The position numbers were made by a program, and so were the translations under genes. This document shows positions 7,864-64,000 of a stretch of DNA of 64,000 bases, one piece after another (the first letter of the stretch is position 1; every line of letters starts with the position of its first letter). The stretch covers positions 11,036,001 to 11,100,000 of the forward strand of contig OY727102.1 of the NCBI GenBank assembly GCA_963402885.1. The letters are read 5' to 3'. This DNA comes from Antedon bifida (Eukaryota; Echinodermata; Crinoidea; Comatulida; Antedonidae). The notes below the pieces were generated by a model. The model was given only the letters and a program-made list of their open reading frames with translations, searched no databases and was not told the DNA's origin.

Positions 7864-7909
7864 GAAAATTATCACTAAACTTCCTAATAAAACAAGTCCA
7901 CTGGATCCT

Positions 7910-27200: not shown

Positions 27201-30200
27201 TCTATAATGTGTTATCCACCAATTTTAAACAATAAATCATCATTTTGGGCTCAAGCTTACAGTATATCCTAAAGCTCTGTCTACGCTATCAAACTTTATG
27301 TAACAAAAAAATGTAATGTACCCAAATATGGTAGTGATATGACATCATCATGTCCATATATGGGCGCATCAAATTTTGTTGTCACATAAAGTTTGATAGT
27401 GTAGACAGAGCTTAAAATGATTAATGGGGAGACTAGGTAAATTGTATATGAGCTGTTGAGACAATAAAGTGAATTATCTCACCTCTAATATAGAAAAATA
27501 AGCCCTTTCCACAAAGTTCTTCCATGAAATTGGTAGATGCAGTGATTGGAACCATTCTGAGGATTGAATAGGTACCTGAGAAATCAAAAAAGAGTTTTGC
27601 TAAATTAAATATACTGAAATCTTCACTCAAGCAGTCTTAGTCATATGAAACAAAATCTTTCTTCTCAATGTCTACTACCAACACGTACAGTTAAAGAACC
27701 TTTATTTGCATACTATTGAATATTCTATTATTGGGTTTTTTGCCACTGAAAATATTATCTTGCTTTTTTTCCTTTGGAAGAAGGAACTTTAAATATGCAT
27801 GACGTGCACTTTCAATTCGCACAAATAAATTAACATACTGTAGTAAAACATTCTTAATTCACCTCATTGACTAAAGTGGTCAGCATTTGCTGATAACCTC
27901 GTCCTGAGCTGGCAATATGGCGTCTTTCTACTTTTCCATCCCTGCCAGCACTATGTATAGACTCAAAGCAACACAACAACCCACCTAGAAAAGAAGAAAA
28001 AACAATTCAAATTTAAAGACAGAAAACTAATAACTAATTCGTGAAAGCAAAAATATAGCCGCGGTTTTCTTCAATAGGCTCGGAATTAAGTTTTAGTTCC
28101 ATTAGTAAATGGAAAAATCAATACCTTGTTAGTTTAGTCCAATTGTAAATGGTGCAATCTAATAAAAGTTAAGATTTCTATAGCTGAATGCTGCCCTCTA
28201 TTTATTTAGTACCTGCAAGGCCCGCCTTCAAGCCTGGTTGCTTATTCCGTTCATATTTGTTCTTAAGAATCCCAGAGATAGTAGAAACAGCCTTGTTGTC
28301 AGACTTCTCAATAATATCACTTGCATGATAGATACTCCGAGGTAAATCCTTCACTTCCTTTTGTACCATAGATGTTAAAAAACATCCAAAATCTGTAAAA
28401 AAAAATTTTTTTTAATGGCACATATTTTTGCATACAAATGTAGTTACACTCTAAAAGAGTGAAGATATCAAACATATAAATCTAATCAAAGTGACGTCAT
28501 GATCAATAACAACAATAAAATCGTTGTATCATCACGATACAATTGCGCATACTAATAGACTTTGATTGGACTTAAACAAAGTTAAATCATTCATTTTTTA
28601 AAATTAAATTGTCTTTAATCACAAAGATCACCTACAATCTGTTAAACTTAAGAATTTAAAAAACTCTAGTAAATTTATGCAAGCATAAATTCTCAGAGAA
28701 CAAATTCTTGCATACTGTATGATCCACCATATTCAATATTTAAAGAATAATTTCATATACAGAATTATAAAAACAAAACTATGAATGTTCATGGTAGCCT
28801 TATTTCTTGCAACAAACTGTACAACATAAAAATCTATGTAGCCTGCATTCTAGGCTTACTACCAGTACCACTATAGAAATTATTGATCTCTTGAAAAAGG
28901 GGCTAACAATAATTTCAACTAGAGTCAAGATTGACTCGAAATAGCGGGAACCTTCCATGACTACCTGGAGAGTTGGGATGTCTGCAAGATGCAAAGTAGG
29001 AAGGTTTAAAGGCTATCAGAGGCTGGAGAATTGGGATGTCTGCAAGAAGTAAAGTAGGAAGGTTTAAAGGCTATCAGAGGCTGCAGAGTTGGGATGTCTG
29101 CAAGAAGCAAAGTAGGAAGGTTAAAAGGCTATCAGAGGCCGCAGAGTTGGGATGTCTGCAAGAAGCAAGGTAGGAAGGTTTATAGGCTATCAGAGGCTGC
29201 AGAGTTGGGATGTCTGCAAGAAGCAAAGTAGGAAGGTTTAAAGGCTATCAGAGGCTGCAGAGTTGGGATGTCTGCAAGAAGAAAAGGAGGAAGGTTTAAA
29301 GGCAATATCTGTATAATAGTTCTAGGATGAATACTTTTTTGATTACCTTTGTTTTTTGTAGGAAAAAATGCAAATAGGCATTTATGCTATGCTTATGTAT
29401 GTTATTGTATTTGTATATAACTGTGAATAAACTAGTGCTTGAAGTTGTCTTTCAATATTTTTTTTTTATATAACATAACATACATAATATAGATGTTTAA
29501 CAACAATGATTCATTAAAACATTCAAAATGTATTCAATTAGTCACACAGGGGACAACCAAGAAAATGATAGTCAAGATAAAATATCATTGTTCATCAATT
29601 AATTTAATTCAAATAATTAACAAGTTTTTGACAGTGCATACATTGTGAAAATAACATCCTTAAAAATCATCTAATGTTCATTTAACTACAATAATGGTTT
29701 TATCATTAAAATAGTCATCGTCCTTTCCAACCATGGTCTATTTTATACAACACCCACATATAATATACAAATAATGAATGATTATGAGTGTAATGATACA
29801 AATAATGGCATGAGGTGAATGATGAAAGGTTATATATCAACGAGTCGATAGCAGAGTTGATATATAACCGTTCATCATTCACCAACTGTCATTATTTGTA
29901 TCATTACACGAATATAAAACATTCATCATTTGTTTTATATAACATCTAAATAGATTCCTGTCATTTGAATAAAAAAAAAGGTAGGCCTACATTTGATTCA
30001 CATTGATTAAAACAGTAACATTTGGTTTTAATAATTATATTAAATATTATTATTTATATGGATTTCATAAATATACCTACTGTTAGTGTTAATTATGTCA
30101 ACAAACGACCAAACAAGGCTGGCAAGGCTGAAACGCCTAGGCCTAGCCTAATACTAACAGGCCTAGCTACGTAGGCCTAGGCTGAAAGACAGCAATATGA

Positions 30201-39200: not shown

Positions 39201-42200
39201 TTACTTGAAGTCCTGAAATGAAAAACAATTGTTAATGGTCTACAGACTTATATTACCTTTGATGTGATATATACATTTGAACCACAGGCAAAATGTTCAT
39301 TTGTTTAGTAAATATATTATGTTGTTTACTATTTATACAGAATTGAATTAATTATTATTATTAGATTTTACTTACTCTCTGTGTTGGATAAATGGTTTTA
39401 AAAAGGACAAGATGTCTTCGAATTTGTACTTCTTTATGTACTTTTTGGCATCTCCACTTTTAGATGCAGCTTTTCGTTTACTGCTGCTGTAAGCATCCCT
39501 GATGTTGGCCCATTTCTTGCGTGCCAAGTCTCCTTTAAATATAAAAAAAAGTGTAGTTTTAAAATAAACATTGAAAATATAAATATCATGTAAACAGCTA
39601 CTGTAGTACAACTAATTAATAGTTACAATAAACATTATTTATCTATTTTTTTTGTGTTGAAACGTTATACAAATCAACTGTCAACACATTGCATACTGCA
39701 CATTACATTTTAAAGTCAAGTAATAAATTAAAACCATTTATCTTTTTTTTTACAGATACTTGGCTACTGGAGACTCGTACAAAACTATTTCTTTTAGTTA
39801 CAGAGTCGGAAAATCAACCATTGTCAACATTGTGCCTGAGGTGTGTGATGCTATTTGGCAATGCATGCACCCTCAATATATGCCTGTTCCAACAGAAAAT
39901 GAATGGAAAGAAGTAGCAGCTGCATTCGAAACAAGGTGGCAGTTCCCAAACTGTGTTGGGGCAATAGATGGGAAACATGTTGTTATTCAAGCCCCACCAA
40001 ATACAGGATCAACCTTCTTCAATTACAAAGGTACTTTTTCTGTAGTACTGATGGCTCTGGTAGATGCCATGTACCGTTTCATACTGATTGATGTTGGAGC
40101 ATATGGTTCCCAAAGTGACGCTGGAATATTTGCAAAAAGTGCAATGGGCAAAGCGATACAAGCCCATCAATTGGCTTTTCCAGCTGATAAAGCATTGCCA
40201 AATGCACCAGAGCTTGGTAAAGTTCCCTATGTCATTGTTGGGGATGAGGCATTTCCACTGAAATCAAATATTATGAGACCTTATCCTGGCAGTGAACTTG
40301 ATGACAGCAAACGAATATACAACTACAGACTTTCTAGAGCCCGGAGGATAGTGGAAAATGCATTTGGCATTTTGGCAGCAAGGTGGCGTGTCTACCAAAG
40401 GCGGATGCAATTACAGCAACACAATGTGGACAAAATAATCAAGGCTACATGTGTACTGCACAAATTTTTACAGAAGACGGGTGATATCAATGCACAAGTA
40501 GATGCTCAAAGGTCTGCACATCATAAAGTCATACAGAACCTGCGTTTAACAGGAAATCATGCCTCAAATGACGCAATAGCAGTCAGGCACACATTCAAAG
40601 AGTACTTTATGTCACCAGCGGGTGAAGTGCCATGGCAAAGGGATGCTTGTTTTGGCAAAGCAGTTTAATTATTCATAATGAAATAAAAGTAGATAAAATG
40701 AGAAACATTCAATATTATTAATTAATAATGTTATAATAATGCCTAACAAAAAATGGTTTATTTGCTGTAACATTGTGGGACGGTTGTAAAAAAGTTTTTT
40801 GTCATTAAATATGTTATGTTTAAAATAATTTCATATCATAGTAATATATTTTAGTTTTAAATTACATTTCAGAGTTGGGAAAAAACATCATTTTATTATT
40901 TTAATATATTTTAAATAATGATATGGCTTTGGTAAACTTGAATATATTTGTTAATGTTGTTGTTGAATAAAATCTATTGTGAAGGTTATTATGCAATATT
41001 ACTATAGTACTAGCCTAGGCCTAGTATTGATATTCTATTAATTATTCGAGAGTAATAATATATTTGTTAATGTTGTAAATTTAATAAAATCTATTGTGAA
41101 GATTATTATGCAATATTACTATAGTACTAGGCCTAGCCTAGGCCTAGTAGTATTGATATTCTATTAATTATTCGAGAGGATTATAATATATTTGTTAATG
41201 TTGTAAATTTAATAAAAATCTATTGTGAAGATTATTATGCAATATTACTACTAGTATTTTTATTATTTTTCATTTCATAAACCATATTCTGTGGCCTACG
41301 CTTACTAGTTAGGCCAAGTTGGTCCACCAAATGATAATTGGTTCACTGCCCGCCGTAGTCGTACACGTGCGCGCGTGCTGACTGACATCTGCAGACTACT
41401 GTCTACTCTACATCACTAGGCTAGACCTAGAAGAAATTACAGACGCGCGCCTAGCCTGGAATAATAGCTGTTAGTTAATCACTTACCAGTCATTCCAACC
41501 CTCTCGCCAATCTCGTTCCATATATCATTTTTTTTAATTTTGTTTTTGTATTCGGCGTGTCCCTTGTCATACAGAACTGTGTTTAGTTGAACGTTCAAAA
41601 TCAGTGTTTCCAAAACAACGTCTGATGTTGTGTCAGCCATCGCGCCACAGAGGAGGAGAGGAGAGGAGGAGTGGAGAAATTCACTGTTGATGACAGGTAT
41701 GACGTACCATCATCTGATTGGCTAAAAACAAAATTATCGGGCGATACAAAAAAAAAATCGCTATAGAAGCCATTCGACCGATTTGGCTCCCGATGACCGT
41801 CTCGATTATCGCTCTAGTGTGACCGCCCCCGCTGTTATGCACTATACCGATATTTTGTATCGATATCGGTCTAAAATATCGGTAAGGTGTGACCGGGCCT
41901 TAAGAGAGGCTTCTAATTCCATTATGTTTTGTTGTTTTTTAGGAACTTTTAATTGTTCGTTTTATGTAATTTATTTTTAAGGAGTGTATGTCTAGAAGCA
42001 AGGAGGTACAAACAAGGAGGATGAAGTTGCAATCATATTTACTTCTTTCTAATTAGGCCTATTCAATGATATTAACATACTTTGGAAGCTTTTACAAAAC
42101 ATGACAATTTACCAGACGACTATGAAATATAGTATTATGTCCTATACCAAACATGATGATGGGAAAACTGACATAATAATATTAATCAATAAAATAATAA

Positions 42201-48677: not shown

Positions 48678-49562
48678 TAATGTATATATATTCAAAATAT
48701 CGGGGGGTGCCAAGTGTCCAACGTCCGGTATGGCGGCCATTTTGAAATCAAGATCATAGACCATAAAAACAAAAAATGTTCATATCTTGGCAACTACACA
48801 CATTAGAGACTTAATTCTGGTCTCAAATTGTTCAGAAACTATATATATTTCTATTTGCTCTAATGAAAATTTTCGTCCAAAAATGACCGGAAATGACGTT
48901 TCTTTCAGTTTGACCTTTGACCTCGTATTTGTATATCTCTGTAACTACTGGTCATTTTCAATCGATTTTGGTGTCATTTTGTTCAGAATAAATACATTTA
49001 TATTTGTAGTAATGAAACATTTTCACATAAAATGACCGGAAATACAATTTATGACCTTTGACATTTAATTATTGATTTTTAATTATGTGAATATACTGTA
49101 TGTGGTTTTTGTTGGTCTTAAATGCACCTAATTTTGAACTTTGACCTGATAGGCGTAATTATATTAAATGATTAATGGACTTAAATTGTATATAGTACAT
49201 AAAATTGGTAAACATTGTGCTTGGTGGTACCATTAGTTCAATGATGTTGGCACCTTCTAATTCGCTAAAAGTTGTAATAGTTTGACAGAGGAAATAACAT
49301 ACATGTTATGGAATACCGTAAAACCTCGAAAAGGTGATAGTATGAGCTTCTTTTCGAGATTCGAGACTGTATTTGAATGTCAAATGAATAGTATGATGAT
49401 CGTGTTTATATCAATATATTATTAATGACCTTACAAAGAACCCTTTATATTTCAACAATCAAGCCTCAGTTATTCTACAATTTTTTGTTTTCCAAGTGGT
49501 AGGCCTATTTTGATTGCATCTTCTTTTTGTAGGCCTCTGCTTCCTCGGTAATATGGTCCTAC

Positions 49563-50222
49563 CCCTCCTTCTTTGTCTGTAGATGGTCTTATACCCCATT
49601 CTTTGTCTGTGGATGGTCTTATACCCGCTTCTTTGTCTGTGGATGGTCTTGTACCCCCTTCTGTATCTGTTGATGGTATTACACCCCTTTCTTTGTGTGC
49701 GGATGGTCTTACACCCCTTTCTTTGTATGTAGATGGTCTTACACCCCTTCTTTGTCTGTGGATGGTCATACACTCCCTTCTTTGTATGTGGATGGTCCTA
49801 CACCCCCTTCTTTGTCTGTGGATGGTCCTACACCCCTTTCTTTGTCTGTGGACGGTCCTACACCCTTCTTTGTCTGTGGATGGTCTCACACCCCCTTCTT
49901 TGTCTGTGGATGGTCCTACATCCCCTTCTTTGTCTGTGGATGGTCTTATACCCCCTTCTTTGTCTGTAAGTGGTCCTATACCCTTTCTTTGTCAGTGGAT
50001 GGTCTTACACCCCCTTCTTTGTCTGTGGACGGTCCTACACCCCCTTCTTTGTCTGTGGACGGTCTTACACCACTTTCTTTGTCTGTGGACGGTCTTACAC
50101 CCCTTTCTTTGTCTGTGGACGGTCTTACACCCCTTCTGTGCCTGTGGACGGTCTTATATCCCCTTCCTTGTCTGTTGATGGTATTACACCCCTTTCTTTG
50201 TCTGTTGATGGTATTACACTGG
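49563..50222. repeat. 30-bp minisatellite, about 22 copies
   Basis: Unit GGTCTTACACCCC plus CTTCTTTGTCTGTGGAT, with copy-to-copy variation in length and bases. The unit is a multiple of three and stop-poor, so long frames (for example 49573-50178 and 49695-50240) open in all forward frames and on the minus strand. They are by-products of the repeat, not genes. Confidence 0.88.
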
Positions 50223-50439
50223 ACCCACTACTTTGATTGATTAAATCAGACATTGTTTCTTGTATGATTAGGAGACCAAGACCTTCAAAGTGAAAGTCCA
50301 CAGGTGGATGCCTAAAAAGGTCTTGTACAGAACAGTATATTGTAGGTCCATGTCACTAATTTGAGAATTACTTGAATAATTATATTGAGATGTCTTTTAC
50401 GAATGGATTTGGTTCGGATTTTGCTAAAAAATTATGACT

Positions 50440-50832
50440 AGAGAAAATCGAGGAAAAGGATTCAGATGGTTTACAGCAAAGGCCCATTACCATAAAAATG
50501 GAGTATATTTTTTTAGATGCAACGAAAATGAAAAAGAATTATCTGAGTTTCTGACTAATGAAAGTAGGTCTACTGCATAAATGCAGGATAAGTTTGTAGT
50601 ATGTACTTTTAAAGACGGTGTTCTCTTAACTCATGAAAATGAGAACTTTCCGAACTTGTCTCATATGCAACATCAAAGAGGCCAACGAAAGAATGCTACT
50701 TTACATCAAAAATATTTCCAAATGGCATCTAACAATTCAATTAAACTTTTATTTCAGACAATTGTCCATATATTGCAAAAAAAAAAAAAAAAGATGAAGG
50801 AGAGAGGACCAAAACTTTTATCTAACGATTGA
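50440..50832 (+). pseudogene. Degraded coding-like stretch in foldback core
   Basis: Reads RCNENEKELSEFLTNES before a stop at 50578, then DKFVVCTFKDGVLLTHENEN and FPNLSHMQHQRGQ in the same frame from 50581, ending in an A-run. The spacing resembles a repeat-associated invertebrate protein in which 'KELxxFL' is followed by a beta-hairpin and a C-H-E-E-type motif. I cannot name the family with confidence. Confidence 0.3.
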
Positions 50833-52438
50833 CACATCACAGTTTAGCAAACAAGTCAGCATAGATGAGCTCAGTGATTGCTGTTTCTCAGTGATCTGTC
50901 ATACTTTACGCCTATCCTATCACATCAAAAGTCAAAAATTCAGAATAATAATTCCTGGTCATTTTTGCATTAAGTGCAATTAGGTGCATTTATACCAATG
51001 TAAACCACATGCAGTATGTTCACATACGTATATATGTCAAAGGTTATAAATTGTATTTCCAGTCATTTTATGTGAAAATGTTTCATTACTACAAATATAA
51101 ATGTCTCTATTCTGAACAAAATGACACCAAAATCGATTGAAAATGATCAGTAGTTACCGAGATATACAGATAAGAGGTCAAAGGTCAAACTGGAAGAAAC
51201 ATCATTTCCGGTCATTTTTTGACGAAACTTTTCATTAGAGCAAATAGAAATATGTGGTTTGTGAACAATTTAACACCAGAATCAAGTCTCTACTGTTTAT
51301 AGTTGCCAAGATATGAACACTTTTTGTTTTTATGGTGGCCATTTTGAAATCAAGATGGCCGCCATACCGGACGTTGGACACTTGGCACCCTCCGATATTT
51401 TTAATCTATATACATCAAAGAAACTTTGTGGCAAGTTTCATGCTTTGGTAATAAAGTGCACAACTTGGCAATTTTTATGGCGCTAACTGCTCTACTATAG
51501 AGTATTAGCAGAACCCCTCTATGATTTTGACTTTCTAATTTGATGCGGGCGCCCTACTCCATGGCAGAGCCATATATATAGAGAGAGTACGGCATTGAAT
51601 GGATTAGAAGCCGTGTTTGTGTCCAAACTATTCCTATGTAGCGTATGGAGTTGAGTCTTTTGTTTTGAAAATGTATAACGTTCAAAAGGCTTTAATTATC
51701 GAATTTAATATCAAAACAATCAATTTGATTAAAGGTTTTTGTTAAAATAATAAAAAAATTATAAAGTTACTGCGAACATGATTTAAAACAACAAAAATAG
51801 GAAGATTAAACGAGACTTACCTGTAAGTTGAAGTTTGATCACTATTTTATGAATATGTGAGTGAGGTGTAAACTGAGATCCCGACGCGCACGCGCACCCT
51901 CATACTTTAAATCAAACATATCCAGAGTAATAATTTGCAGCGATAAGTATATATATGATAACCTGCATTGTTCTATAATAATAATTGTTTTACTTGGGGT
52001 GGGTTGAGGCGGGCAGTTTACACCTCACTCACATATTCATAAAATAGTGATCAAACTTCAACTTACAGGTAAGTCTCGTTTAATCTTCCTATTTTATTTC
52101 ATATACGTTCGCTGTAAACTGAGATGTTTAAAGCCAACTCTGGAAACATGTTTGAACTGTAAACCAAATAATTGACGGAAATGTTAGTTTCAATAAAACA
52201 ACTTTATTTCCAAAAGTCTACATTCATTCATAAGGATGTTTGCCTAACGGGCAACTTAAATATGACAACTATCGTGTTGTATTAATAATAAAGCATTTAT
52301 TTTGCTTATAATCAATAGTCCAACGTTTTAGGATTCTCACCCTAAAAACATCAATTAGAAAACTAAACAACAATATTAAACTGGTTCAAAATGCAAACAG
52401 GGGCTATTTGTAGTAGCCAACAACAAACACAACCAATA

Positions 52439-53400
52439 TTAATGAGTTGATGAATCAACTTTTCTCAACAGTGCCTGTTGAAATGACGGATTTTCTACAA
52501 ATTTTATAGGCTTATTATAATATCTGTTTAGTGTATGTTCGTTTCTCCACCCAGCTGTTTTCATTATTAAGTCAACCGGGACATTCCTTAATTTTGCTGA
52601 TGAAGATGCAGCCGCTCGGACCGAATGGGCTTTAAATTTTGTTGTATCTACTCCTGCTTCTGATAAACCTGTCCTTATCCATCGAGCAATTGTGTCTTTT
52701 GATGCCTCGGCATACGGTTTCTTATGACATATAAAAAAAATCTGTCCTTATTTTCCCTTAAATTACTAGTTTTTTCCCTGTACTTTAGAATTGTTCTGAC
52801 CGGACATAGGGCAGGGTCTTCACTTTTGTGGAAAACCACCAGTTGACCTGTATTGTTTGGTCTGCTAGTTTTTAGTAATGTACAAATGTAAAAGGTGATT
52901 GCTTCATTCTCGATATTCATATTTGAAAATTTGAAATTATATAAGGTTTGAAGCCTACTTGAGGACAATAATGCTAATAACAATGCTACTTTTGTGGTAA
53001 ATTCTTTAAGCGATAATGTATCGTCGTTAATTGTTCGCCTCAGATAGTCTGTAACTAAGCGAACATCCCAAATGTGTGCATATTTTGGAGTCGGTGGGTT
53101 AAAATTGAATAACCCTTTCATAAATCTTTTCAGTTCAATAGACTCCTTCATGTTTATATCTAAGATTTCGAGAAAGTTTACAATTGCGCTTTTCGCTATA
53201 CTGATAGTACTATAGCCTAAGCCCTCGTCCTTCAGCTTTATCAAGAAATCGAGGACGTGACCGGTGTTTAGCTGTTGCCATGTGATTCCTCTGATTTCAC
53301 AAAAGTCTATAAATTTTGTTAGCTGTGAGTTATATTGCTTCCACGTTGACCGTCTCCAGGATTGCAGAATGACGTCTGCTGCAGTATTGCTTATTCCTTT
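52439..53400 (-). CDS. DIRS tyrosine recombinase, one frameshift
   Basis: The frame overlaps the end of the RT ORF and starts near SNTAADVILQSWRRSTWKQY. The SAM-like N-terminal part is followed by the catalytic domain: LLLALLSSSRLQTLYNF (box I Arg), FKAHSVRAAASSSA (HxxR box) and GWRNEHTLNRYYNKP (Tyr nucleophile). It ends VDSSTH at 52439. Near 52733-52740 the reading moves one frame in a run of eight T on the minus strand: DRFF continues as CHKKPYAEASKDTIARWIRT only after a shift. This is either a real inactivating indel or a homopolymer error. The enzyme inserts the circular DNA copy of the element by site-specific recombination. All catalytic residues are present on either side of the shift. 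Confidence 0.87.
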
Positions 53401-56400
53401 GTTGTAGAGTTCCGCCCTGATAGCCTGCAGGCAAAAAGGTTAAGTCTGTTATAAAGGGGATGACAATCATCTGAACCATGTAATGTTAAGGCATGTTTGG
53501 TATTCTTAAACCTCAGTGGTTCCCCAACCATCATTGATAGTAATTTAGGATACCAATACTGTGTTAGCCAGTTTGGGACCACCATGATAACTATGGCATT
53601 ATCTGTCAATATTTTTTGCAAACATCTACCTATAAGGCAGAACGGCGGGAAAGCATAGAGCTTGGCAGAGGACCAATTTTGTAGAAATGCATCGATACCA
53701 ATTGAATCTGGGTCCGGTTTCCATGATATATATTTCGGAAGCTGTGCATTGTGCCTAGAAGCGAATAGGTCTATATCCAGTTCGCCGAATGTTTTAGTGA
53801 TTTTTATAAACAATTCTTTGTTAAGCATCCATTCTGTCTCATCTTTAAACTGACGAGACTTTGCATCAGCTATTATATTATCTCTACCTGGGATGTATTC
53901 TGCACTTATCCAAAAATTGTTCTCAATGCACCAAGACCAGATGGCTTTTGAAATTTTATTGCACGCAATTGATTTTGCGCCGCCCATGTTGTTTATGTAA
54001 GCTACTGCCGTGGTATTATCAACCTTCAACCTTATGTGCTTAGCTTTTCTCTCACGGGACAATGCTTTAAGGCCGAAAAAAGCAGCCAGCAATTCTAAGT
54101 AATTAATATTTAGTGCCCCTGTAGCATATGCAATGTCTAGGTCTTTGTTTATCCACCTTCCCCCTGTGTGGGTATGTCCATCAGTGGCACCCCAGCCTAG
54201 ACCACTAGCGTCTGTCTCAATTGTTAGGTCGGGGTACCCATGATATATCAATTTATATGCGTCTTTGACATTATTTTGCCACCAAAGAATATCGTCCCGT
54301 CCATTGACGGAAATACTAATAGGCCTATCGTAATGGCCTTTATTTATTTTTAGAGCTAGTATTTTCTCCTTCTCTAGTGCCCTATAATGAAGCTTTCCAT
54401 ACTCTACAGCAGGTAGTGTTGCTATAATTTTGCCTAAAAATTGCGCAACTTTCCTAATGGTAGTATGACTTAATGTAAGTATGTGTTTACTTTGAACTCT
54501 AATTTCCTCCTTCTTGTGATATGGAAGGGAAACCGTCATACTTATAGAATTTATTTCAAATCCCAAGAAGGTTATGATCTGCGTAGGATTCATTACTGAT
54601 TTTTCTCTATTAATGATAAAACCCAATGAGGCTAGAAGTTCACTAGTTTCCCTGGCGGTACCGCCGGCCAAGTCTTCTGACTGGTTTATACACAAAATGT
54701 CATCAATGTAAACCAACAGAATATGCCCTCTGCTGCGCAAAAACGCAATTGGGGGCTTCAATAATTTCGTGAAAAGTCTAGGCCCTGAGCTAAGCCCATT
54801 AGGCAATGCGACAAACTTATACAGGTTGTCTTTCCAAACAAATTTTAAATATTTAGTGTCCGACTCTGCTATGGGTACAGTAAAATATGCATCTTTGAGG
54901 TCGACTGACGTCATATATACACCTGGTGAAATTAGTGTCAATGCATTTCCAAACATTTCCATTTTGAAATGTTTGTATGTCACATATTCATTTAATTTAG
55001 AGAGGTCTAATATCATTCTGAACCCTCCATCTTTCTTTGGCCTTGTAAAAATATTTGATACAAACTGGTCATGTTCATACATGGCTGGTTTGACCACCCC
55101 TTTTGATATCAATTTAACTATTTGATCATCAATAGCCTCCATATCCATGTTGCTGAGTTTGTATGGATGAGGTATTTTTCCTTTTAGGTGGTAGGGTATG
55201 GCTTTATCAAACTCTATTTTATATCCTGAAACCGCATTTAGGATGTATGGATCCGAAGTATATTTTTTCCACCTATGTATATATGACCTGAGTCGACCTC
55301 CTACTATGTCAAGGTTATTATGTTTGTTAACCTTATTGTTAGGAGAAATACTTATATTATCAATCGACTCATACCTCTTCGGCTGTTGTTTTAGGTCCTT
55401 TTTCCCCTGATAAAATTTGGTCTGGTTGTAGTTGTTTGTTGACCATTTGTGTCGCCGGGTTTGACCTAAAAAAGGTTTGCCATTTCTATTGTATGGCTGG
55501 TATCTGTAGTTGTTGGACCTGGTCTTTGGTTGGTACGACTTAAAATTAAATAAGCCTGCCGTAGCCTTCCTTTCCTCATCCAGTTTTTTAACTGTAGTAC
55601 TCAGGTCACCAAATAAATACTCTGTAGGCTTAATGCTGGGTTTACATAAATGAGTATATTTGGCATTTATTTCCGGTTTCAACATCTCCTTACGAAGTGC
55701 AAGTAACTCGAAGTTCGCATTGGCAAGTAGGCCGATTGTGTCCTGTGCTATCTCCGATGACTCATTTCCATCAACTAATTTAGCAAGGGCGGTAATTCCC
55801 TTTATCAAAGGTTTTTGTACCTTTTGAAATTTTAGATCGTTAGACCGTGCCCTTGGTGTAATGGAATCCCAAATAGTTGGATTGACCTTTGGCACCATTA
55901 GGGCCTCTAGATTTTCCGGTATAGGATAGCTTTTGATCAGCTCGGTCATTACACTATCACTCATATGCGAGTGCAATAAGTATGTTAGCGTGTCAGCCAA
56001 CTCTTGGCTGACTGCTGGTGCCAATTCGTTAGAAACAGCAAATCTTGCTGCAAAACCCGGAGGAAGGGGGCCTTTGACCTTACTATTACTATTAGTGGCT
56101 GGCCGCTCAGGATTTTCATCCTTCTTGGATAGTTGTGTACCTGTTACTTCCCCCTCCTCCAGGTCAGACACATCATGTTCGTACTGATGATGCCTATCGT
56201 AAATGTTACTCGTGAGGCTAACCACCGAGCTACTGTCATCATATTCATTGTTGTGACATTGTGATGACATTTGTGTCATCAACTGAGATAAAAGGTCGTG
56301 CGTTGACTCATTTATTTGTTGAGCAGCCTTCGTCTCTTTAACCTGCTGCTCAACCAACCGCTCAAGGTTTTCAACCCTAGCCTCATAGTTCAGGCCTACT

Positions 56401-56648
56401 CCGACCTGTTGATTAGGCTGCAGCACGTTAGTGCATGATGGCCCGGCGATAGCAACGGCATCGCTGTTGCTATGCGTATTACCTTCTTTAGGAGGCCTAG
56501 TAATAGTACAGTTAGACCCCGCCTTCCTGGCCTTTTTGGTGGGCTTAGCCACCGTATGCTGTACAAGTGGAGTTGTAGCTGCAAATGTTACATTTCCAGC
56601 AGAAATCTCCAGCACATCTTCTTGTATTGCAAGTGATTTTTGTTCCAT
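53391..56648 (-). CDS. DIRS Gag / reverse transcriptase / RNase H polyprotein
   Basis: Intact frame. I choose the Met at 56648 (MEQKSLAIQ) because the extra 45 codons upstream, to 56783, run through the inverted-repeat leader. The N-terminal part is Gag-like with a predicted coiled coil (ARVENLERLVEQQVKETKAA) and acidic linkers. RT follows: DGGFRMILDLSKLNEYVTYK, SVDLKDAYFTVPI, ALPNGLSSGPRLFTKLLKP and LLVYIDDILCI with the catalytic YIDD. RNase H has TIETDASGLGWGATDG, LELLAAFFGLKAL and KVDNTTAVAYINNMGGAKS. The C-terminal block DLFASRHNAQLPKYISWKPD and YAFPPFCLIGRCLQKIL is typical of DIRS. It copies the element's RNA and removes the RNA strand. The frame is uninterrupted over about 1,085 codons, suggesting a recent insertion. 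Confidence 0.9.
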   Translation of the reverse strand: MEQKSLAIQEDVLEISAGNVTFAATTPLVQHTVAKPTKKARKAGSNCTITRPPKEGNTHSNSDAVAIAGPSCTNVLQPNQQVGVGLNYEARVENLERLVEQQVKETKAAQQINESTHDLLSQLMTQMSSQCHNNEYDDSSSVVSLTSNIYDRHHQYEHDVSDLEEGEVTGTQLSKKDENPERPATNSNSKVKGPLPPGFAARFAVSNELAPAVSQELADTLTYLLHSHMSDSVMTELIKSYPIPENLEALMVPKVNPTIWDSITPRARSNDLKFQKVQKPLIKGITALAKLVDGNESSEIAQDTIGLLANANFELLALRKEMLKPEINAKYTHLCKPSIKPTEYLFGDLSTTVKKLDEERKATAGLFNFKSYQPKTRSNNYRYQPYNRNGKPFLGQTRRHKWSTNNYNQTKFYQGKKDLKQQPKRYESIDNISISPNNKVNKHNNLDIVGGRLRSYIHRWKKYTSDPYILNAVSGYKIEFDKAIPYHLKGKIPHPYKLSNMDMEAIDDQIVKLISKGVVKPAMYEHDQFVSNIFTRPKKDGGFRMILDLSKLNEYVTYKHFKMEMFGNALTLISPGVYMTSVDLKDAYFTVPIAESDTKYLKFVWKDNLYKFVALPNGLSSGPRLFTKLLKPPIAFLRSRGHILLVYIDDILCINQSEDLAGGTARETSELLASLGFIINREKSVMNPTQIITFLGFEINSISMTVSLPYHKKEEIRVQSKHILTLSHTTIRKVAQFLGKIIATLPAVEYGKLHYRALEKEKILALKINKGHYDRPISISVNGRDDILWWQNNVKDAYKLIYHGYPDLTIETDASGLGWGATDGHTHTGGRWINKDLDIAYATGALNINYLELLAAFFGLKALSRERKAKHIRLKVDNTTAVAYINNMGGAKSIACNKISKAIWSWCIENNFWISAEYIPGRDNIIADAKSRQFKDETEWMLNKELFIKITKTFGELDIDLFASRHNAQLPKYISWKPDPDSIGIDAFLQNWSSAKLYAFPPFCLIGRCLQKILTDNAIVIMVVPNWLTQYWYPKLLSMMVGEPLRFKNTKHALTLHGSDDCHPLYNRLNLFACRLSGRNSTTKE

Positions 56649-57355
56649 GATCGTTCGGGTGCACGCCGTCTCCAAACGATGGCGCCGATATGAGGGTGCG
56701 CGTGCGCGTCGGGATCTCAGTTTACAGCGAACGTATATGAAATAAAATAGCAATTTCGGAACGGCTCTGGTTGTGCGCTCCATGCACGCTCTACGCGTGC
56801 GCGTTTAGTTTGTACAGCGATTCTCTATAGTAATGCATTGTTTTTACATTTTGTTGTTTAAAATCATGTTCGCAGTAACTTTATGATTTCGTTATTATCT
56901 TAACAAAAACCTTTAAACAAATTGATTGTTTTGATATTAAATTCGATATTTAAAGCCTTGTGAATGTTATACATTTTTTAAGCAAATGACTCGACTCCAT
57001 ACGCTACATAGGCATAGTTGGACACAAATATGGCCGGCGTGCACACCACGTGACTTTCTAAAATCCGTGAACGCAAAGTCGTAACTCTCTCTATATATGG
57101 CTCTGCTCCATGGCTCACAATGGCGCCACCCATAGCTCTATTCTATCCCACAATGCCTTTCGAAATTGTTACGCGCTTCGGACAAACAGGAGATTCTTGT
57201 GTTATAAGTTCTTTGACTGTAGTGTTACCAAAGATTTTAATATAGGCGCGCGCGTCTATTGTGTATAGCGTTTTCCTGTAGTTAGTTTTCTAGGCTATGC
57301 ATTATTTTTAGATTTTGTTGTCTATGAAATAACGCTTAGATTCCGTTTTTATTTA

Positions 57356-57702
57356 AAGATGTATTGTCCCCCAAAATCATGAAAAATAAAGATTTTTAAA
57401 ATCGGACTTTGAATAGGCCATTTTGCAGTTTTAATGAAGTTGTTCACTTCCATAAGAAAAAAAACGGGGGAAAAAAATTATTTCACCTATAAAAAGACAA
57501 AATAAACAGTTAAATTACCCAAAAACTCATTGTCTTCCAGACAGTTTGACCATTTTTTGCTTTAAATTACATTTTTCTCAGGTAAATACATTTTTTTCAG
57601 ACACAATTTTTTGTGAGAGTGAATAACTATTATGTGACATTAAAATAACATATTCAACAAAAAAATTTAAAAAAATATTTTTTTAGGGGGACAATATATC
57701 TT
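57356..57702. mobile_element. MITE, TGTATTGTCCCC family, copy 3
   Basis: Ends AAGATGTATTGTCCCCC and GGGGGACAATATATCTT, TA on both sides, AT-rich, no ORF. The spacers 57114-57355 and 57703-58034 hold no gene that I can support. Confidence 0.75.
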
Positions 57703-58034
57703 TAAGTAATACATTTTATTAATGGTATTTGGATTTGTTAAAATATATATATATATCTTTTATAATAAAAAAAAAAAATGCTAGGGCCTACATTTTATTT
57801 AGTCATCAAAGCATGAATTATGAATTGAAAATATTACATAATTGTTAATAATAGGACGTAGTTATGGGATGTTTCGTTCCAAAATCAATCAATCAAACTT
57901 TATAATGTACTATCGCACGCGCGCGCAATATTCTTTGCCGCGCAAGTACTTCTGTACGCTGTGCACGTCGATATTCCACCGTAAAATGTGCAATTACATT
58001 TTTTTTTAAATATAAGAAAAAGTTGAAAGTATTT

Positions 58035-58440
58035 TGTTGCTAGAAGAATATGTCTACAAGCAACAATTCAACTGGATCGGACATGTAATTTGAAAAGAAA
58101 ATGAAGATCTTACAAAAATTCTTACTTTTCACACAAAGTAAACGAAGAGGTCGAAAGATACCATCAGTACTTGATAGAGTTGTACAACAAAGTCAACTTA
58201 CTAGATGCAACTTCATTGGAGCCTGCTTCAACAGAAATTTATAATTTCCAGCAATGTTTTAACTGTATATAATTATGAACTGTTTTATAAGTAGTTTTGT
58301 GACTGTGCAATTTGGTAATAGTCACTCTCATACTGTACATTTAAAAGTAACACATCCAAATGCCAACTTCAAGTCAATGGCTACAAGATGTCTCTGTGAG
58401 ACGGTTATTTGAACCAGTACCAGTACAATCATGTTAGATT
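58035..58440 (+). mobile_element. LINE 3' fragment, same family as 15125-15545
   Basis: Begins in EEYVYKQQFNWIGHV and continues through KENEDLTKIL and RGRKIPSVLDRVVQQSQLT to a 3' UTR ending GGTTATTTGAACCAGTACCA. 5' truncated, with small frame disruptions. Confidence 0.7.
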
Positions 58441-58543
58441 AGATCATAAAATCATGTACTATATGTTATAGCAACATTTGAAAGAAAATGACTGTTTTTA
58501 GAAAATATCGTTATTAATTTTTTTTTTCCCTAAGCAGTTGATG

Positions 58544-58740
58544 GTAAATCATCGAGGGCAAGGTTTTACGACACGTGATGTAGATAACGACAATAGAATA
58601 CGGAGAATCGTGCTGAACAGCATGAAGACGCCTGGTGGTATTACAGTTGTTACTCATGTCATTTAAATGGAAAGTATGAATGCTCATTTCAATGTTTTAC
58701 TGAAGAAGCTATTCTAACAAATCTGAGATCGTCATAAATA
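58544..58740 (+). pseudogene. Fibrinogen-related domain (FReD) exon relic
   Basis: After an acceptor-like CTAAGCAG the frame reads LMVNHRGQGFTTRDVDNDNR. It then continues, after a one-frame shift near 58600, as RAEQHEDAWWYYSCYSCHLN and GKYECS, ending at a stop at 58735. This matches the FT(T)xDxDND...CAxxxxxAWWYxxCxxxNLNGKY core of fibrinogen-like C-terminal domains (ficolins, tenascins, angiopoietins), which bind calcium and ligands such as acetylated sugars. The frameshift and the replaced tail make this a dead fragment. No neighbouring FReD exons were found. Confidence 0.72.
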
Positions 58741-59498
58741 AAAATGAAGCGTACTGTGCAAATACTAGAAAAAAATTTCTTAGAATTGTGAAATATTTGC
58801 TAACAAGCCCTAACTAATACTACTACTAATAATAAACATAGACACTATTAAAATAATGGAAAAATAATAAACCTGTTTATTCATTTAAAGATGAACATGA
58901 AATGTTATTGAACATTTACAATGTTGCTATATTATTATAATAATACACCTATTAGTTGTTATAAATAACTAATACACGAATTAACAACATTGTAAATACT
59001 CAATATTTTAATACCGAGCCTACACAATTACCTACCCTAGAGTATCATAATAAAGTAACTCATTAAAATAGTACCACGTCAATAATTGACAGCGACAACA
59101 TGTTTTACTTTATAATAAAACTACTTGAATCAAATCCTAAACATAAACATCATTGAGGGTACTTTGTATGGTGCTTTAACAGTCTGGTGGTGGCACCAGC
59201 ATATTGTATGCCAACAGCCCAATAACTCCTGAAAAGCTATAAAAATGAAAAAACACAGAATCAAGATCAATTGCTGTGTTGGAAATTCATTAAATACTGG
59301 AAGCTGAGAGACGATTCAGGTAAGTATTACATCATTAGTAAAATCGGATGGTTTTGACAAATTACGATATTCTGTTCATACAAAATTAAATAAATCAACT
59401 AATACAACTACAGTACAAACGAAAGGGGAAGTTGCAATTTATTGTCAGTCTTGTATTCGTTCTCTTATCAACGTACAGTAATTGTCTTTTCATTGTTA
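58741..59498. other. AT-rich spacer, nothing recognised
   Basis: Low-complexity AT-rich sequence without a convincing frame. Confidence 0.5.
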
Positions 59499-59679
59499 CC
59501 GTAAATCTTCTAATTGTAACCCTGGGTTATTATTCTTGTTTTTAGGGTGGGTTACTATTAGAGTAGTGGGTTACTATTACTAATCTTAAATTAGGCACCT
59601 GAAAATAGTAACCCACCCCAACTTTTCCGGTCAGCAACTCATAGCAAAATAATAAAACAGTACGAATAAACACATTTGG

Positions 59680-59874
59680 TTGAACCTTAACTTTATTTTA
59701 TCGACGTTGAACATAAATTATGGCGGAAGCTACAGTAGTGTAGATGATGTGTATAAAACTACATTTTTGAGTAACATCAGGCCAGCAGTGTATAAACAAT
59801 TCTGGAAACCAATCACAGGTGAATGGCTACAATGTTATAAAGATGATAGAGACGAAGCACTATTGTATGACTAG
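59680..59874 (+). CDS. Short unassigned frame, 64 codons
   Basis: Reads NYGGSYSSVDDVYKTTFLSN, then VYKQFWKPITGEWLQCYKDD and DEALLYD before the stop. The composition looks protein-like and not like random AT-rich translation, but I do not recognise a family. It may be an exon relic carried by the surrounding TIR element. Confidence 0.25.
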   Translation: MNLNFILSTLNINYGGSYSSVDDVYKTTFLSNIRPAVYKQFWKPITGEWLQCYKDDRDEALLYD

Positions 59875-60399
59875 ACTTGCCCCAAGTCTGTATTCATTGT
59901 CTTTGTATTTATTCATTCACTCACTATGTCAGTCGGTCGGTCGGTAAACACTAACTTTATATGGCCTTGTCTTGATATCAGTTTCATCTAGCTAAGTCAA
60001 TTTTTTACAGTATATTCCTTATGGCCAGGAATCGATGTGGTTATGTTTTCACGGTGCGCAATCAAAAATTACGCGGTCTACGCACGATTTAACGAAATCA
60101 CGTTTGTAATCATATCTTCACAAGCATGAATCACAATTAAATAAAATTTGGTACTAATAAATTTCAGGTCATATTTCATCATATGGCAATACAATTACGT
60201 GCGTAGCGCATATAACGCATGCGTACGCGCGCTTAAAATTGTCAAAATTTATTTTCGATGAAATTAGAGTACATTTCAGGCAATTTTAAGCGTTTAAAAA
60301 ATTGCCATGGGTGCGCAGATTTTCGCACGCGCACTGTGCGTTAAACCTTAATATGCACTCTTTTTGCCCGATTTCTGCTTTACAACATTTCTAATATCA

Positions 60400-61190
60400 T
60401 CAAGAATCTCCATGTAGGGCTTTCTCTTTCCAGTTCTTGGTTTTCTCCTCTTGTTGCCACCTCTTCTGATAATCTATAAGAGTTCTTTTTTCATCTAACA
60501 CCTTCTCCTTTAAAGCAAATTGCAGCATCCACTGTAGTATTTTTACTCTACTCAACAGCTCACTATGTCGATCGGTTGGTCGGATGGTTGGTCGGTCGGT
60601 CACTAACTCAAATTTGAGCACGCGACTGCAGCCATCTATATGGCCTTGTTTATTTTGATCTTTGTCTGAAAATATCCAAGCTATAGTAGTATACGTATGA
60701 AACGCCATATGTGCAAAAATATTTATCTTTTTACTATTATTAAAACAAAACATCGACAAGAATACCGGACATACAAGGCAAAAGTGATACTCGTCTTCTA
60801 TTTGTTGCCGGTCGCACATATGACATAGATTCAAAGAATTATCATTTACTCTAATATTGACATTTAAGTTGTGTGATGAGGTCCTTATCAACGAAATGCC
60901 TCTTCTATGCCTGAATTTGATTTGATATTTGATACCCAATTTGGTTTACCTTCTTTTTCTTGAAATCGCTTCAAATGCGCATAACATTTATAAGGAAGTC
61001 GATTTGGAGCCATTCCGATTACCTTTAGCCAATAAGCTAACAATTTATTGTATACATCAATCCATAATGGAAAACGCCCAAGTTAAGCTCTTGATCTGTC
61101 GTTACTGGATTTATAAGGTATGCCAAGAACTTTCATTTAGTAAGGACTGTTTCAACTGTAATATAACTACTTATTTTAAAAAGGCCTTTA
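60400..61190 (-). mobile_element. LINE ORF2 C-terminal relic
   Basis: Minus strand, with breaks: LGRFPLWIDVYNKLLAYWLK, NRLPYKCYAHLKRFQEK, KPNWVSNIKS, then RTSSHNLNVNI and CHMCDRQQIEDEYHFCLVCP. The GRFPL...YWLK block and the CxxC...EDEYHF..CP zinc-knuckle-like end are typical of the C-terminus of a group of invertebrate non-LTR elements. It is frameshifted and lacks reverse transcriptase. Confidence 0.65.
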
Positions 61191-62359
61191 TTGGCTTGGC
61201 TTTGGCTTTGTAAGAGTGTTTATTGCGACAGACCACGTACCTCTTGAACTTAAAATACCTATTTACAGTATTGTATAGTATTGTAATACTATTTATGTTT
61301 ATTCTCCACGGTCCCATAAATTTACCTACTTGTGTTAAACCATGGAGGTAGGCCTATACCTCTATGGTTAAACCAAATAATTTGGAATGTTCCATTCATC
61401 GCAAATCAATACATTTGTATAAACGTATATTAAATCTATCAAAATAGCATTTTTTAAAGAAAATCGGCCTGTCTTATGATGCTGCACTCGAGCTGTTCAA
61501 CCGGTTTTCAGCTATTAAAAACAATTATCGTAGGAGGAGATAGGAAAATGCGAAGCATCCTCGTATTATTGTGTGCGGGTATTTTTCAAGATGGACATCC
61601 ATTAGACAGTGTATACCACGATCGGAAAACACCCTTATTTGGGGCAAATCGTTGAACCTAGATTCGTTTTAATTGTCAATAACTAATTATCTAACTCAAT
61701 TTAATTAGTAAACAGGGTTAAATCAGGTGGTTAAAATCAGTACCGAAAGTATGAACCAACTTTAGGCCTATATACCATCGAGTAAAAATTCTAGAAGTAA
61801 CGCGCGATTTACCGATTTTTGCCCTTACGTAAATTTATGTATAGATAACGGGATTCCAAAGATTTAAACAATTCATTTTACTTAGACTAAACAGAGACTT
61901 AGAATAATCAATAATCATTTTAGTTTGGCTAGGCATTTCCAGGGGTCCTTTTTAAGAGATCGACCATGTATACACATGGTCTTGTACATGCGTTTTTTCT
62001 CCAGAAATTGAGATAGATTATTACGAGTATTTGTATCTCTGAAAACTTTTAGAATACATCGTGTTAAAAGCAAAAAAAATGTTGATTTTATTGTCATTTT
62101 GTCAAAAGTTTTTGTGACTCTATCATGGGTTACTATTAGAGTAGTGGGTTATTATTATAGATTGACTTATAAGGTGGGTTACTATTATATGGGGGTTACT
62201 ATTAGAGTGTGGGTTGCTATTAGAAGATTTACGGTATTATTATTTATTTAGTTTCTATTCTTTATGGACATTGTGCTTAAGCGTGATGAACCACGCTCGT
62301 TAAAGATGTTATTACTTATACTTATTTTTATTTTTGTATTTTACTTTTATTGATTACAG

Positions 62360-62363
62360 AACC
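62360..62363 (+). other. Likely splice acceptor and start context of the Arg/Tyr-repeat gene
   Basis: TTTTACTTTTATTGATTACAG is directly followed by AACC and then ATG at 62364. This looks like a 3' splice site with a pyrimidine-rich tract placed four bases before the start codon, implying a 5' UTR exon further upstream that I cannot locate. Confidence 0.5.
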
Positions 62364-64000
62364 ATGTGGTGGGTTCGAGTTGGTATCTTTTCTATCTTGT
62401 TCCTGGTAGCTGTGAAAGGAGATTCAGGAACTATCGAAAACGAGGAAAATGCAAGCAAGGCAGTTTTAAGGCCTGATTTAAACTTGGATGTGAAGGCAGA
62501 CCTATCGAGTGTTAGCCCTCTAAGTGCTATCACATCAGATGAGACAGACAAAGTAAAGTTACGTTGTCGCAGACGGAGGAGAGTACGTCGATGTCGTAGG
62601 CGACACCATCGTTATGTAAGACGACGTTGTCGCCATTGCAGAAGACGACATAGACGTTGTCGGCACTCTATAAGACGACGTTACCGTTGCAGAAGACGGC
62701 GTTGTAGGCGATACCGTCGACAATATCGTCGCTCTGTTAGACAACGACGCCGTTGCAGAAGACGATACAGACGCGTTCGTCGATGTATAAGACGGCGTAA
62801 TCGTTCCAGAAGACGTTACTGTAAGCGATACCATCGACGTTATCGTCGCTGTGTTAGGCGGCGGCGACGACGACGTCGTTGCAGAAAACGATATAAACGT
62901 GTTCGCCGATGTATAAGACGGCGTTACCGACATCGTTGTAGGCGATACCATCGACGATATAGAATTTATTGGCGTCTCAATCGTTGCTATATGTTAGTCC
63001 ACCGAGGCCGCTGTGTTCGTCGATACCGCATTAGATACAGGTACCATCGACATAAGTTATACATCTACTACGGGCGAAGATGGCGCTGTGTTCGACGATT
63101 TAAACGCAATGGAAGATGGTACACATACTACAGGGGTCGTTACGTTATAAGACGTCGTTTTAGGAGATCTTACCGTAGAATATATTGGCGCAGAAACCGT
63201 TGTTATCTGTTGATCCGATGTGGTCGTCACGTTCGACGGTATCGACTTAGATATAGATACCGTCACCATTTATTGTATGTTTATTACAGAAGACGATGGC
63301 GCATTGTTCGACGTTATAGACGTCATGGGAAATGGTATACGTACTACAGAGGTCGATACGTTACCAGACGTCGTTTTAGGAGATGTTACCGTAGAATATA
63401 TTGGCGCAGAAACCGTTGTTATCTGTTGATCCGATGTGGTCGTCACGTTCGACGGTATCGTCTTAGATACAGATACCGTCGTCACTTATTGTATGTTTAT
63501 TACAGAAGACGATGGCGCATTGTTCGACGATACATACGTCATGGAAAATGGTATACGTACTACAGAGGTCGATACGTTACCAGACGTCGTTTTAGGAGAT
63601 GTTACCGCAGAATATATTGGCGCAGAAACCGTTGTTACCTGTTGATCCGATGTGGTCGTCACGTTCGACGATATCGTCTTAGATACAAATACAGTAACCA
63701 CTTATTGTACGTTTACTACAAAAAAAAATGGCGTTGTGTTCGACGTTATAGACGTCATGGAAAATGGTATACGTACTACAGAGGTCGATACGTTACCAGA
63801 CGTCGTTTTAAGAGATGCTACCGTAGAATATATTGGCGCAGAAACCGTTGTTATCTGTTGATTAGATGTGGTCGTCACGTTCGACGATATCGTCTTAGAT
63901 ACAGATACCGTCACCACTTATTGTATGTTTATTACAGAAGACGATGGCGCATTGTTAGACGATACATACGTCATGGAAAATGGTATACGTACTACGGAGG
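62364..64000 (+). CDS. Secreted Arg/Tyr/Cys-rich tandem-repeat protein, 5' part, open at window end
   Basis: 545 codons without a stop; the gene continues beyond the window. Residues 1-19 form a signal peptide (MWWVR, then VGIFSILFLVAV). Residues 20-62 are an acidic segment with ten Asp/Glu. Residues 67 to about 200 are extremely Arg/Cys-rich, with an internal repeat of about 38 residues (RRCIRRRNRS / RRCIRRRYRH). From about 201 on the protein is an exact 72-residue repeat: IYW recurs at residues 201-203, 273-275, 345-347, 417-419 and 489-491. One unit has 28 Arg, 14 Tyr, 3 Trp and 2-4 Cys. Sub-motifs are HGKWYTYYRGRYVTRRRF, NRCYLLIRCGRHVRRYRLRY and HLLYVYYRRRWRIVRRY, which look like successive beta-hairpins. 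I do not recognise the family. A secreted cationic matrix, adhesive or antimicrobial role is possible, the acidic segment acting as a pro-region; this is inference only. Confidence 0.85.
   Translation, partial: MWWVRVGIFSILFLVAVKGDSGTIENEENASKAVLRPDLNLDVKADLSSVSPLSAITSDETDKVKLRCRRRRRVRRCRRRHHRYVRRRCRHCRRRHRRCRHSIRRRYRCRRRRCRRYRRQYRRSVRQRRRCRRRYRRVRRCIRRRNRSRRRYCKRYHRRYRRCVRRRRRRRRCRKRYKRVRRCIRRRYRHRCRRYHRRYRIYWRLNRCYMLVHRGRCVRRYRIRYRYHRHKLYIYYGRRWRCVRRFKRNGRWYTYYRGRYVIRRRFRRSYRRIYWRRNRCYLLIRCGRHVRRYRLRYRYRHHLLYVYYRRRWRIVRRYRRHGKWYTYYRGRYVTRRRFRRCYRRIYWRRNRCYLLIRCGRHVRRYRLRYRYRRHLLYVYYRRRWRIVRRYIRHGKWYTYYRGRYVTRRRFRRCYRRIYWRRNRCYLLIRCGRHVRRYRLRYKYSNHLLYVYYKKKWRCVRRYRRHGKWYTYYRGRYVTRRRFKRCYRRIYWRRNRCYLLIRCGRHVRRYRLRYRYRHHLLYVYYRRRWRIVRRYIRHGKWYTYYG
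62972..64000 (+). repeat. 216-bp coding tandem repeat, 4.75 units
   Basis: The DNA repeats with an exact 216-base period (for example ATATATTGGCGCAGAAACCG at 63180, 63396, 63612 and 63828). It differs by a few substitutions and no frame-changing indels. It is CpG-rich (CGT, CGA, CGC codons) in an otherwise AT-rich region. Confidence 0.92.

Follow-up and report, generated by a model that had tools for sequence, protein, structure and literature searches.

Arginine-rich repeat genes of the crinoid Antedon bifida as candidate components of a charge-paired secreted material

Secreted materials made of charge-paired, repetitive proteins are already known as a kind from other animals. In the granules of the sandcastle worm, polyanions and polycations are described as coacervating by charge (PMC4275877). 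The Cuvierian COOLPs of sea cucumbers have no orthologues or domains, carry long tandem repeats and are almost all beta in structure (PMC12472103), and a cationic, Arg/Tyr-rich reflectin is reported to condense once anions screen its charge (PMC11927725). The adhesive secretions of sea stars and sea cucumbers are stated to hold sulfated polymers (PMC6262867), and larvae of Antedon mediterranea are described as attaching by an adhesive pit (PMC11336682); a paper on sea-star footprint proteins, examined by term search, contains none of the words 'arginine', 'cationic' and 'tyrosine' (PMC9382459).

Set beside these systems is a gene at the end of the window analysed here, a 64,000-nucleotide stretch of the Antedon bifida genome (C15:11036001-11100000; the searched genome comprises 315.6 Mb in 27 contigs). 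An earlier note on this DNA had pointed to an ATG at position 62364 followed by 545 stop-free codons up to the window end, and this was borne out: the frame 62364-63998 is open throughout, against a chance expectation of 33 stops per 545 codons at this base composition, and the other five frames hold 13-44 stops. Extension past 64000 revealed no break just beyond the window, and the stop codon was found 1915 nt on. The complete gene, g1 (C15:11098364-11101915), encodes 1183 aa in a single coding exon (exon 2, 62360..64000 within the window, forward strand, with the coding sequence from 62364). It is a real, complete and unrecognised gene for an extremely Arg-rich protein.

The g1 protein consists of a leader, an acidic segment, an Arg/Cys block, 13 beta units and a Ser/Thr-rich tail, and the signal-peptide-like start, acidic segment and Arg/Cys block that had been proposed were all found. 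The leader (MWWVRVGIFSILFLVAVKG; 62364..62420, forward strand as are all parts of g1) spans residues 1-19 up to a putative cleavage site; its hydrophobic core reaches a best 12-residue mean Kyte-Doolittle value of 2.95, and it resembles the leaders of the sister genes and of the database relative described below. On the strength of this hydrophobic leader, the product is probably secreted. The acidic, propeptide-like segment (62421..62561, residues 20-66) has a net charge of -5 and a pI of 4.2, and the Arg/Cys block (62562..62954, residues 67-197) contains 61% Arg and 14 Cys (11%), with a net charge of +83. The beta units follow at 62955..63170 (unit 0, an older copy), 63171..63386 (unit 1), 63387..63602 (unit 2), 63603..63818 (unit 3) and 63819..64000 (unit 4, cut by the window end), with eight further units and the Ser/Thr tail beyond the window.

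The repeats had been described as exact 72-residue units of about 39% Arg and 19% Tyr. The period (216 bp, 72 residues) and the Tyr content (19.5%) hold for residues 198-545; Arg amounts to 35.6%, the figure of 39% being nearer to Arg plus Lys, and the units are not exact copies, since units 1-4 share 85-97% protein identity and unit 0 only 67-72% with the others. The same region has a net charge of +135 and contains 11 Lys, 6.6% Leu, 5.5% Val, 4.9% Ile and, by inspection, few Met. Over the 13 units in order, Arg plus Lys makes up 37, 40, 40, 38, 37, 38, 38, 38 and 37%, then 33, 22, 24 and 19%, so that nine units (37-40%) may be called supercharged. The net charge of the whole protein after the leader is +404.

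The pattern of substitution among the repeats shows which frame has been kept. Across the six pairs of units 1-4, 50 silent and 29 changing codons were counted in frame, compared with 9 silent and 71 changing in one of the other forward frames and 15 and 38, plus 21 stop-involving, in the other; the three reverse frames, counted over three full units, gave 3/42, 10/36 and 19/13 silent/changing codons, the last with a further 10 stop-involving and nine stops per unit. Nei-Gojobori estimates among units 1-4 were 0.012-0.078 for dN and 0.135-0.339 for dS, and between unit 0 and units 1-3 they were 0.18-0.24 and 1.6-1.7, with dS saturated against unit 4. On these counts, together with the stop expectation, a chance open frame was rejected, and so was a Thr/Ser-rich gene on the minus strand, since stops recur in every unit of the reverse frames (one, three or nine, depending on the frame). 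Each of the six Arg codons occurs, and the abundance of Arg can therefore not be put down to a codon microsatellite. In the duplication within the Arg/Cys block, changing codons (13) outnumber silent ones (6), and therefore only composition seems to be kept there.

The protein had been called unrecognised, and it remains so: Pfam, NCBIfam and PDB sequences gave no convincing match to the window gene (within this family, the NCBIfam comparison covered the window frame and the database relative), no known repeat family or retroelement domain was found, and these repeats, with Arg above 30%, went unrecognised by every family library searched. Several hits were set aside as effects of composition, namely PDB matches to NDUFA8 and CCA-adding enzyme (E 0.31-0.82, with another at E 1), an adenovirus GP19K Pfam match at E 0.0012, under its cut-off, and matches of TgpA_N to 2/23 units and of five other Pfam families to 1/23 each (best E 0.0043). 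In a two-unit structural model of moderate confidence (pLDDT 79, pTM 0.44), turns of two residues connect eight short strands in each unit, in place of the three hairpin-like motifs per unit that had been noticed. Fold searches returned no significant match; a two-faced Arg/aromatic alternation at every second residue was not significant in the unit, and the window unit showed no significant internal period (best lag 20, z 1.9).

A retroelement open reading frame was likewise rejected for g1, as neither the 545-aa frame nor the 1183-aa protein holds a reverse transcriptase, integrase or nuclease Pfam domain. Such elements do occur elsewhere in the window. At 52675-56804 on the reverse strand, two frames encode a reverse transcriptase (E 1.6e-18) and a tyrosine-recombinase N-terminal domain (E 4.5e-8), along with a Dam-like methyltransferase just under its curated cut-off (E 2.7e-6), in what we take to be a DIRS-like retroelement; two overlapping forward frames at 6193-9406 encode an endonuclease and a reverse transcriptase, presumably of a non-LTR retrotransposon. 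A DDE_Tnp_4 transposase frame lies at 39727-40668 (forward strand), a 30/119-bp minisatellite with long open frames on both strands at 49553-50219, and a 58-bp array (5.8 copies, 94% matches) at 28965-29303. Rfam and tRNA scans gave 0 matches each.

Protein searches of about 5.8 billion sequences yielded a sole relative, P0001, an uncharacterized 342-aa protein of Antedon mediterranea; these searches admit lengths of 0.55-1.75 times the query, the first of them scored only the 7974 candidates sharing most words, and longer relatives may therefore exist unseen. P0001 and g1 have 63% identity over 67 aa of the leader and have the Arg/Cys block and Ser/Thr tail in common, and a sister gene in the same genome as the window, g3, is 95% identical to P0001, a closeness that would place the genome in A. 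mediterranea or a near congener. The two units of P0001 contain 14.5% Arg, compared with 36% in g1. Over the 133 aligned columns that pair them with window units 0-1, 45/53 apolar or aromatic positions of P0001 are still apolar in g1, whereas 27/56 of its remaining non-basic positions are Arg or Lys in g1 (Fisher p 4e-10 for the contrast). On these aligned residues, we read g1 as a protein that nature has supercharged around a conserved core. At its unit junctions, g1 has Arg runs that P0001 lacks, so the release of unit peptides is not conserved, and a polyprotein cut into 72-residue peptides was rejected on this ground.

The search of the genome brought out a multigene family of at least 14 genes reaching beyond the window, which the earlier reader could not see. 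It was assembled from one DNA search, protein searches with P0001, a C1 member and C8b, and reading of the fetched stretches, and its gene counts are lower bounds over five places on three contigs. On C15, g1 is joined at 11.098-11.127 Mb by g2 (469 aa), g3 (341 aa) and g4 (628 aa), and a fifth gene, g5, lies at 17.02 Mb, apparently split by a virus-like insertion. A cluster on the reverse strand of C8 (9.262-9.302 Mb) holds six genes: C8a, the acidic C8b (936 aa), C8c (1204 aa, 32% His), C8d (578 aa), C8e (1573 aa) and C8f (278 aa). Three genes were found on C1, at 32.127 Mb (2170 aa, 27% His), 32.138 Mb (2196 aa, 30% His) and 9.046 Mb (an open frame of 3213 codons, 24% His), so that four members in all are His-rich (24-32%).

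A typical member has a signal-like leader, an acidic segment, blocks rich in Arg, Cys or His and, in most genes, a beta unit of 65-72 residues; unit-bearing members carry net charges of +50 to +625 (in the case of C8a, g5 and the 9.046-Mb gene, those of a frame or of a partial sequence). A profile grown from the window and P0001 units detected 111 units in 13 genes, 93 of them distinct, with 86 in 14 frames (two frames each for C8a and g5) and 25 in the 9.046-Mb frame; this total is a lower bound, parts of two C1 genes (L040, L041) lying outside the unit scan. Over the 111 rows, one Trp and one Tyr are near-invariant (99% and 97% of units with a letter there). Coding constraint is again visible in the units of C8e, where 887 silent and 758 changing codons were counted in frame, compared with 297/1149/162 and 306/1228/94 silent/changing/stop-involving codons in the two remaining forward frames; a reverse frame comes close to the coding frame (799/698), yet stops are involved at 131 codons.

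The leader and the acidic segment together are of the type M-x-W...SRPD(I/V)NL. In a comparison of 13 leaders, to which that of the 9.046-Mb gene did not belong, g1 matched those of g2-g5 and C8a-e at E <=2e-4, and those of C1p and C1m at E 0.13 and 0.94, while no match to that of C8f was listed; all five C15 and all five C8 leaders aligned are hydrophobic. The conserved leader and the in-frame constraint support the proposal of a secreted polycationic repeat protein, as far as sequence can speak for secretion. Within the reach of the open-access literature and of the length-limited protein searches, the protein family appears to be new.

Several members have peculiarities of their own. The array of C8a is interrupted by about 280 bp with stops (C8:9268928-9269205, L034), perhaps a short interspersed element or an intron. 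Between the halves of g5, which lie about 12 kb apart (C15:17.02-17.034 Mb, L008/L009), there is a frame for a DNA polymerase of type B (DNA_pol_B_2, E 6.6e-45), together with one short frame that recurs on both sides in opposite orientations, a layout that we assume to be that of a Polinton-type element. A 219-aa, minisatellite-like frame lies between g1 and g2 (L007:6329-6988). C8c (C8:9283699-9287313, L035) repeats, for about 10 rounds, the acidic segment, the residues CCRRH, a poly-His/Tyr tract and a run of Arg, in the manner of a multiblock polyampholyte. In one C1 gene (C1:32126718-32133248, L038, with L040), a block of 1310 residues with 41% His, repeating every 36 residues (57% self-identity at that lag), stands between beta units, and residues 1601-2600 of the 9.046-Mb gene, with 39-48% His, are comparable to it; the L038 block could possibly serve as a metal-binding or pH-switch polymer.

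Upstream of g1, a probable promoter and 5'-untranslated exon 1 were located at 59215..59319 (forward strand), with a TATA box (CTATAAAA) at 59237 and an exon end at 59319 (TTCAG/GTAAGT). The pair 59237/59319 is a candidate, the sole TATA-plus-donor pair in a pattern scan of 50001-62363. The putative 5'-UTR intron of 3040 nt (59320..62359, forward strand, GT...AG) would run from the donor at 59320 to the acceptor ttgattacag/aaccATG, and CAG, four bases and then ATG recur in 10/10 genes inspected out of the 14 (g1-g5 and C8a-e). The promoter block of g2 matches 59215-59249 (83%, E 3e-4), with weaker matches for those of g3 (59139-59179, E 0.06), g4 (59231-59258, E 0.1) and g5 (59215-59240, E 0.8); the strongest single hit of this relaxed search as a whole fell far from here, the g4 block matching 12645-12672 (E 2e-4). 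A comparable TATA-donor pair is present in g2, g3 and g4, for which the patterns were written after viewing their alignment, and none in g5. In C8a-e (5/5, C8b included), an upstream block with CTATATAAAC is followed 79-87 nt on by an exon end and then GTA[AG]G.

C8b extends the charge range of its cluster from +486 to -167. It has no beta unit and consists largely of a motif repeated 38 times, with a spacing of exactly 24 residues, and its leader, TATA-donor block and acceptor context are common to the polycationic C8a, c, d and e. A genome search with the motif matched the acidic segments of C8e and C8a (68% over 34 aa, E 4e-5 and 9e-5), because of which C8b is most simply seen as an amplified propeptide; the same search also gave one weak match on C7. 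The C8b frame is weakly favoured, with 1197/1669/0 silent/changing/stop-involving codons against 942/1695/140 in the next forward frame and 1040/1773/36 in one reverse frame. A Dynein_IC2 hit on the acidic repeat (E 2e-8), which passes the whole-protein curated cut-off with no single stretch passing, was rejected as a composition effect.

On balance, and with slightly better than even confidence, we favour the view that this family constitutes a multi-part secreted material that forms complex coacervates. The g1 product would be made in a pre-pro form, its acidic segment shielding the positive charge along the secretory route, and would be one component among several, with sister genes adding more polycations, block proteins rich in His and a single polyanion, the last derived by amplification of an acidic motif that resembles the acidic segment of the family. 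Opposite charges and Arg-Tyr contacts could then draw these proteins, with each other or with sulfated glycans, into a dense fluid, the complex coacervate, and setting after release might proceed through charge screening by sea water, deprotonation of His, Cys disulfides and possibly Tyr chemistry. As a speculative extension, the material would most likely serve for adhesion, as a cement or as a protective matrix, perhaps where the larva attaches, in the skin or on the tube feet. Against this view, the leaders of the C1 members and of C8f show weak or no similarity to that of g1, the sea-star footprint paper cited above is silent on arginine and cationic character, and the poly-Arg stretches of the family, in which furin-type sites abound, might be cut up.

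A bolder form of this account, to which we give somewhat less than even confidence, is that one pre-pro gene gave rise to the whole polyelectrolyte material, with the supercharged beta unit, the His-rich blocks and the propeptide-derived polyanion all secreted together. If true, the material would be of its own origin, its counter-ion polymer having come from the intramolecular chaperone of the polycation.

The earlier note had offered binding to sulfated glycans, an adhesive or matrix role and antimicrobial action as possible functions. Other roles for the same proteins have to be weighed. A skeletal, ligament or pigment-storage matrix, in which they would bind stereom mineral, ligament proteoglycans or sulfated polyketide pigments, is unlikely but deserves first mention: crinoids have such pigments, and Arg-, Tyr- and His-rich polycations would suit sulfated aromatic or sulfated-glycan partners, but the promoter-like block shared with the polyanion argues for charge pairing between proteins. 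Host defence, with antimicrobial or polyanion-trapping polycations on the skin or in the coelomic fluid silenced by the acidic segment until cleavage, is also unlikely, and slightly more so. The very high positive charge and the pre-pro layout with its acidic segment and Arg/Cys-rich block fit it; however, it is hard to see what a 936-aa polyanion gene and His-rich proteins of at least 1204 aa would do in a defence set, and the A. mediterranea protein is missing the junction Arg runs of the g1 units. It is because of the sister polyanion gene and the His-rich sister genes that a material seems preferable to an antimicrobial peptide. A part in gametes or egg coats appears improbable; such proteins would be acrosomal or cortical-granule polycations that bind the sulfated jelly of the egg, or Tyr-rich coat proteins open to cross-linking in the fertilization envelope. 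Echinoderm egg coats are sulfated, and the repeat arrays change while the leader is better conserved, as this reading would have it, but the members scanned contain no convincing Pfam family and 14 genes with very different block types are more than is usual for gamete proteins. Finally, a non-functional GC/CpG-rich satellite, open by accident, accounts for the tandem array and for a CpG observed/expected ratio of 1.95, the window up to 62300 having one of 0.64, but is refuted, as far as sequence can do so, by the in-frame constraint, the conserved leader, the splice-site and promoter-like blocks, the annotated relative and the 14 genes, and we give it next to no credence.

Should the coacervate-forming material prove correct, the family would let one ask, in a natural case, how strongly a folded domain can be supercharged, and would give the study of complex coacervation in deuterostomes a model defined by its genome; it could also identify a crinoid cement or secretory matrix. 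One way for a polyanion to evolve is suggested as well, in that the propeptide of a polycation could be amplified. Genes of this sort readily escape notice, as illustrated by the one relative obtained from length-limited protein searches against at least 14 genes in a single genome.

Comparison with known systems narrows the field further. Protamines have an Arg/Cys/Tyr/His composition like that of the N-terminal block of g1, and were rejected as a model because g1 has a signal-like leader, an acidic segment and beta units. With the beta-hairpin solenoids that bind choline or glucan, the unit may share short hairpins with aromatic residues and turns containing Gly; among 50 Foldseek rows listed for the P0001 model, the first 21 are of a type that we take to be these solenoids, although the best (E 0.027, TM 0.10) is not significant, and Pfam and PDB searches gave no sequence match to them. 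Reflectins are intracellular. Like them, g1 has cationic repeats rich in Arg and Tyr, but reflectins are described as Met-rich and without Lys and aliphatic residues (PMC11927725), whereas g1 has a signal-like leader, Lys and Leu/Val/Ile; with 11 Lys and 17% Leu/Val/Ile in residues 198-545, it was not assigned to them. The COOLPs, known here by description, are likewise echinoderm orphan tandem-repeat beta proteins, and their secretion is described as acidic, unlike the crinoid polycations (PMC12472103). Compared by description and not by sequence, the crinoid set differs from sandcastle-worm cement in being Arg- and His-based and in possessing a beta unit. The polyanion of the sandcastle worm is a serine-rich phosphoprotein. 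By description, the Phragmatopoma cement proteins Pc-1 to Pc-5 comprise several repetitive basic proteins and an acidic one (PMC4275877), and the crinoid family has the same make-up: as encoded, oppositely charged repetitive proteins lie together in one cluster, and all of them are presumably secreted.
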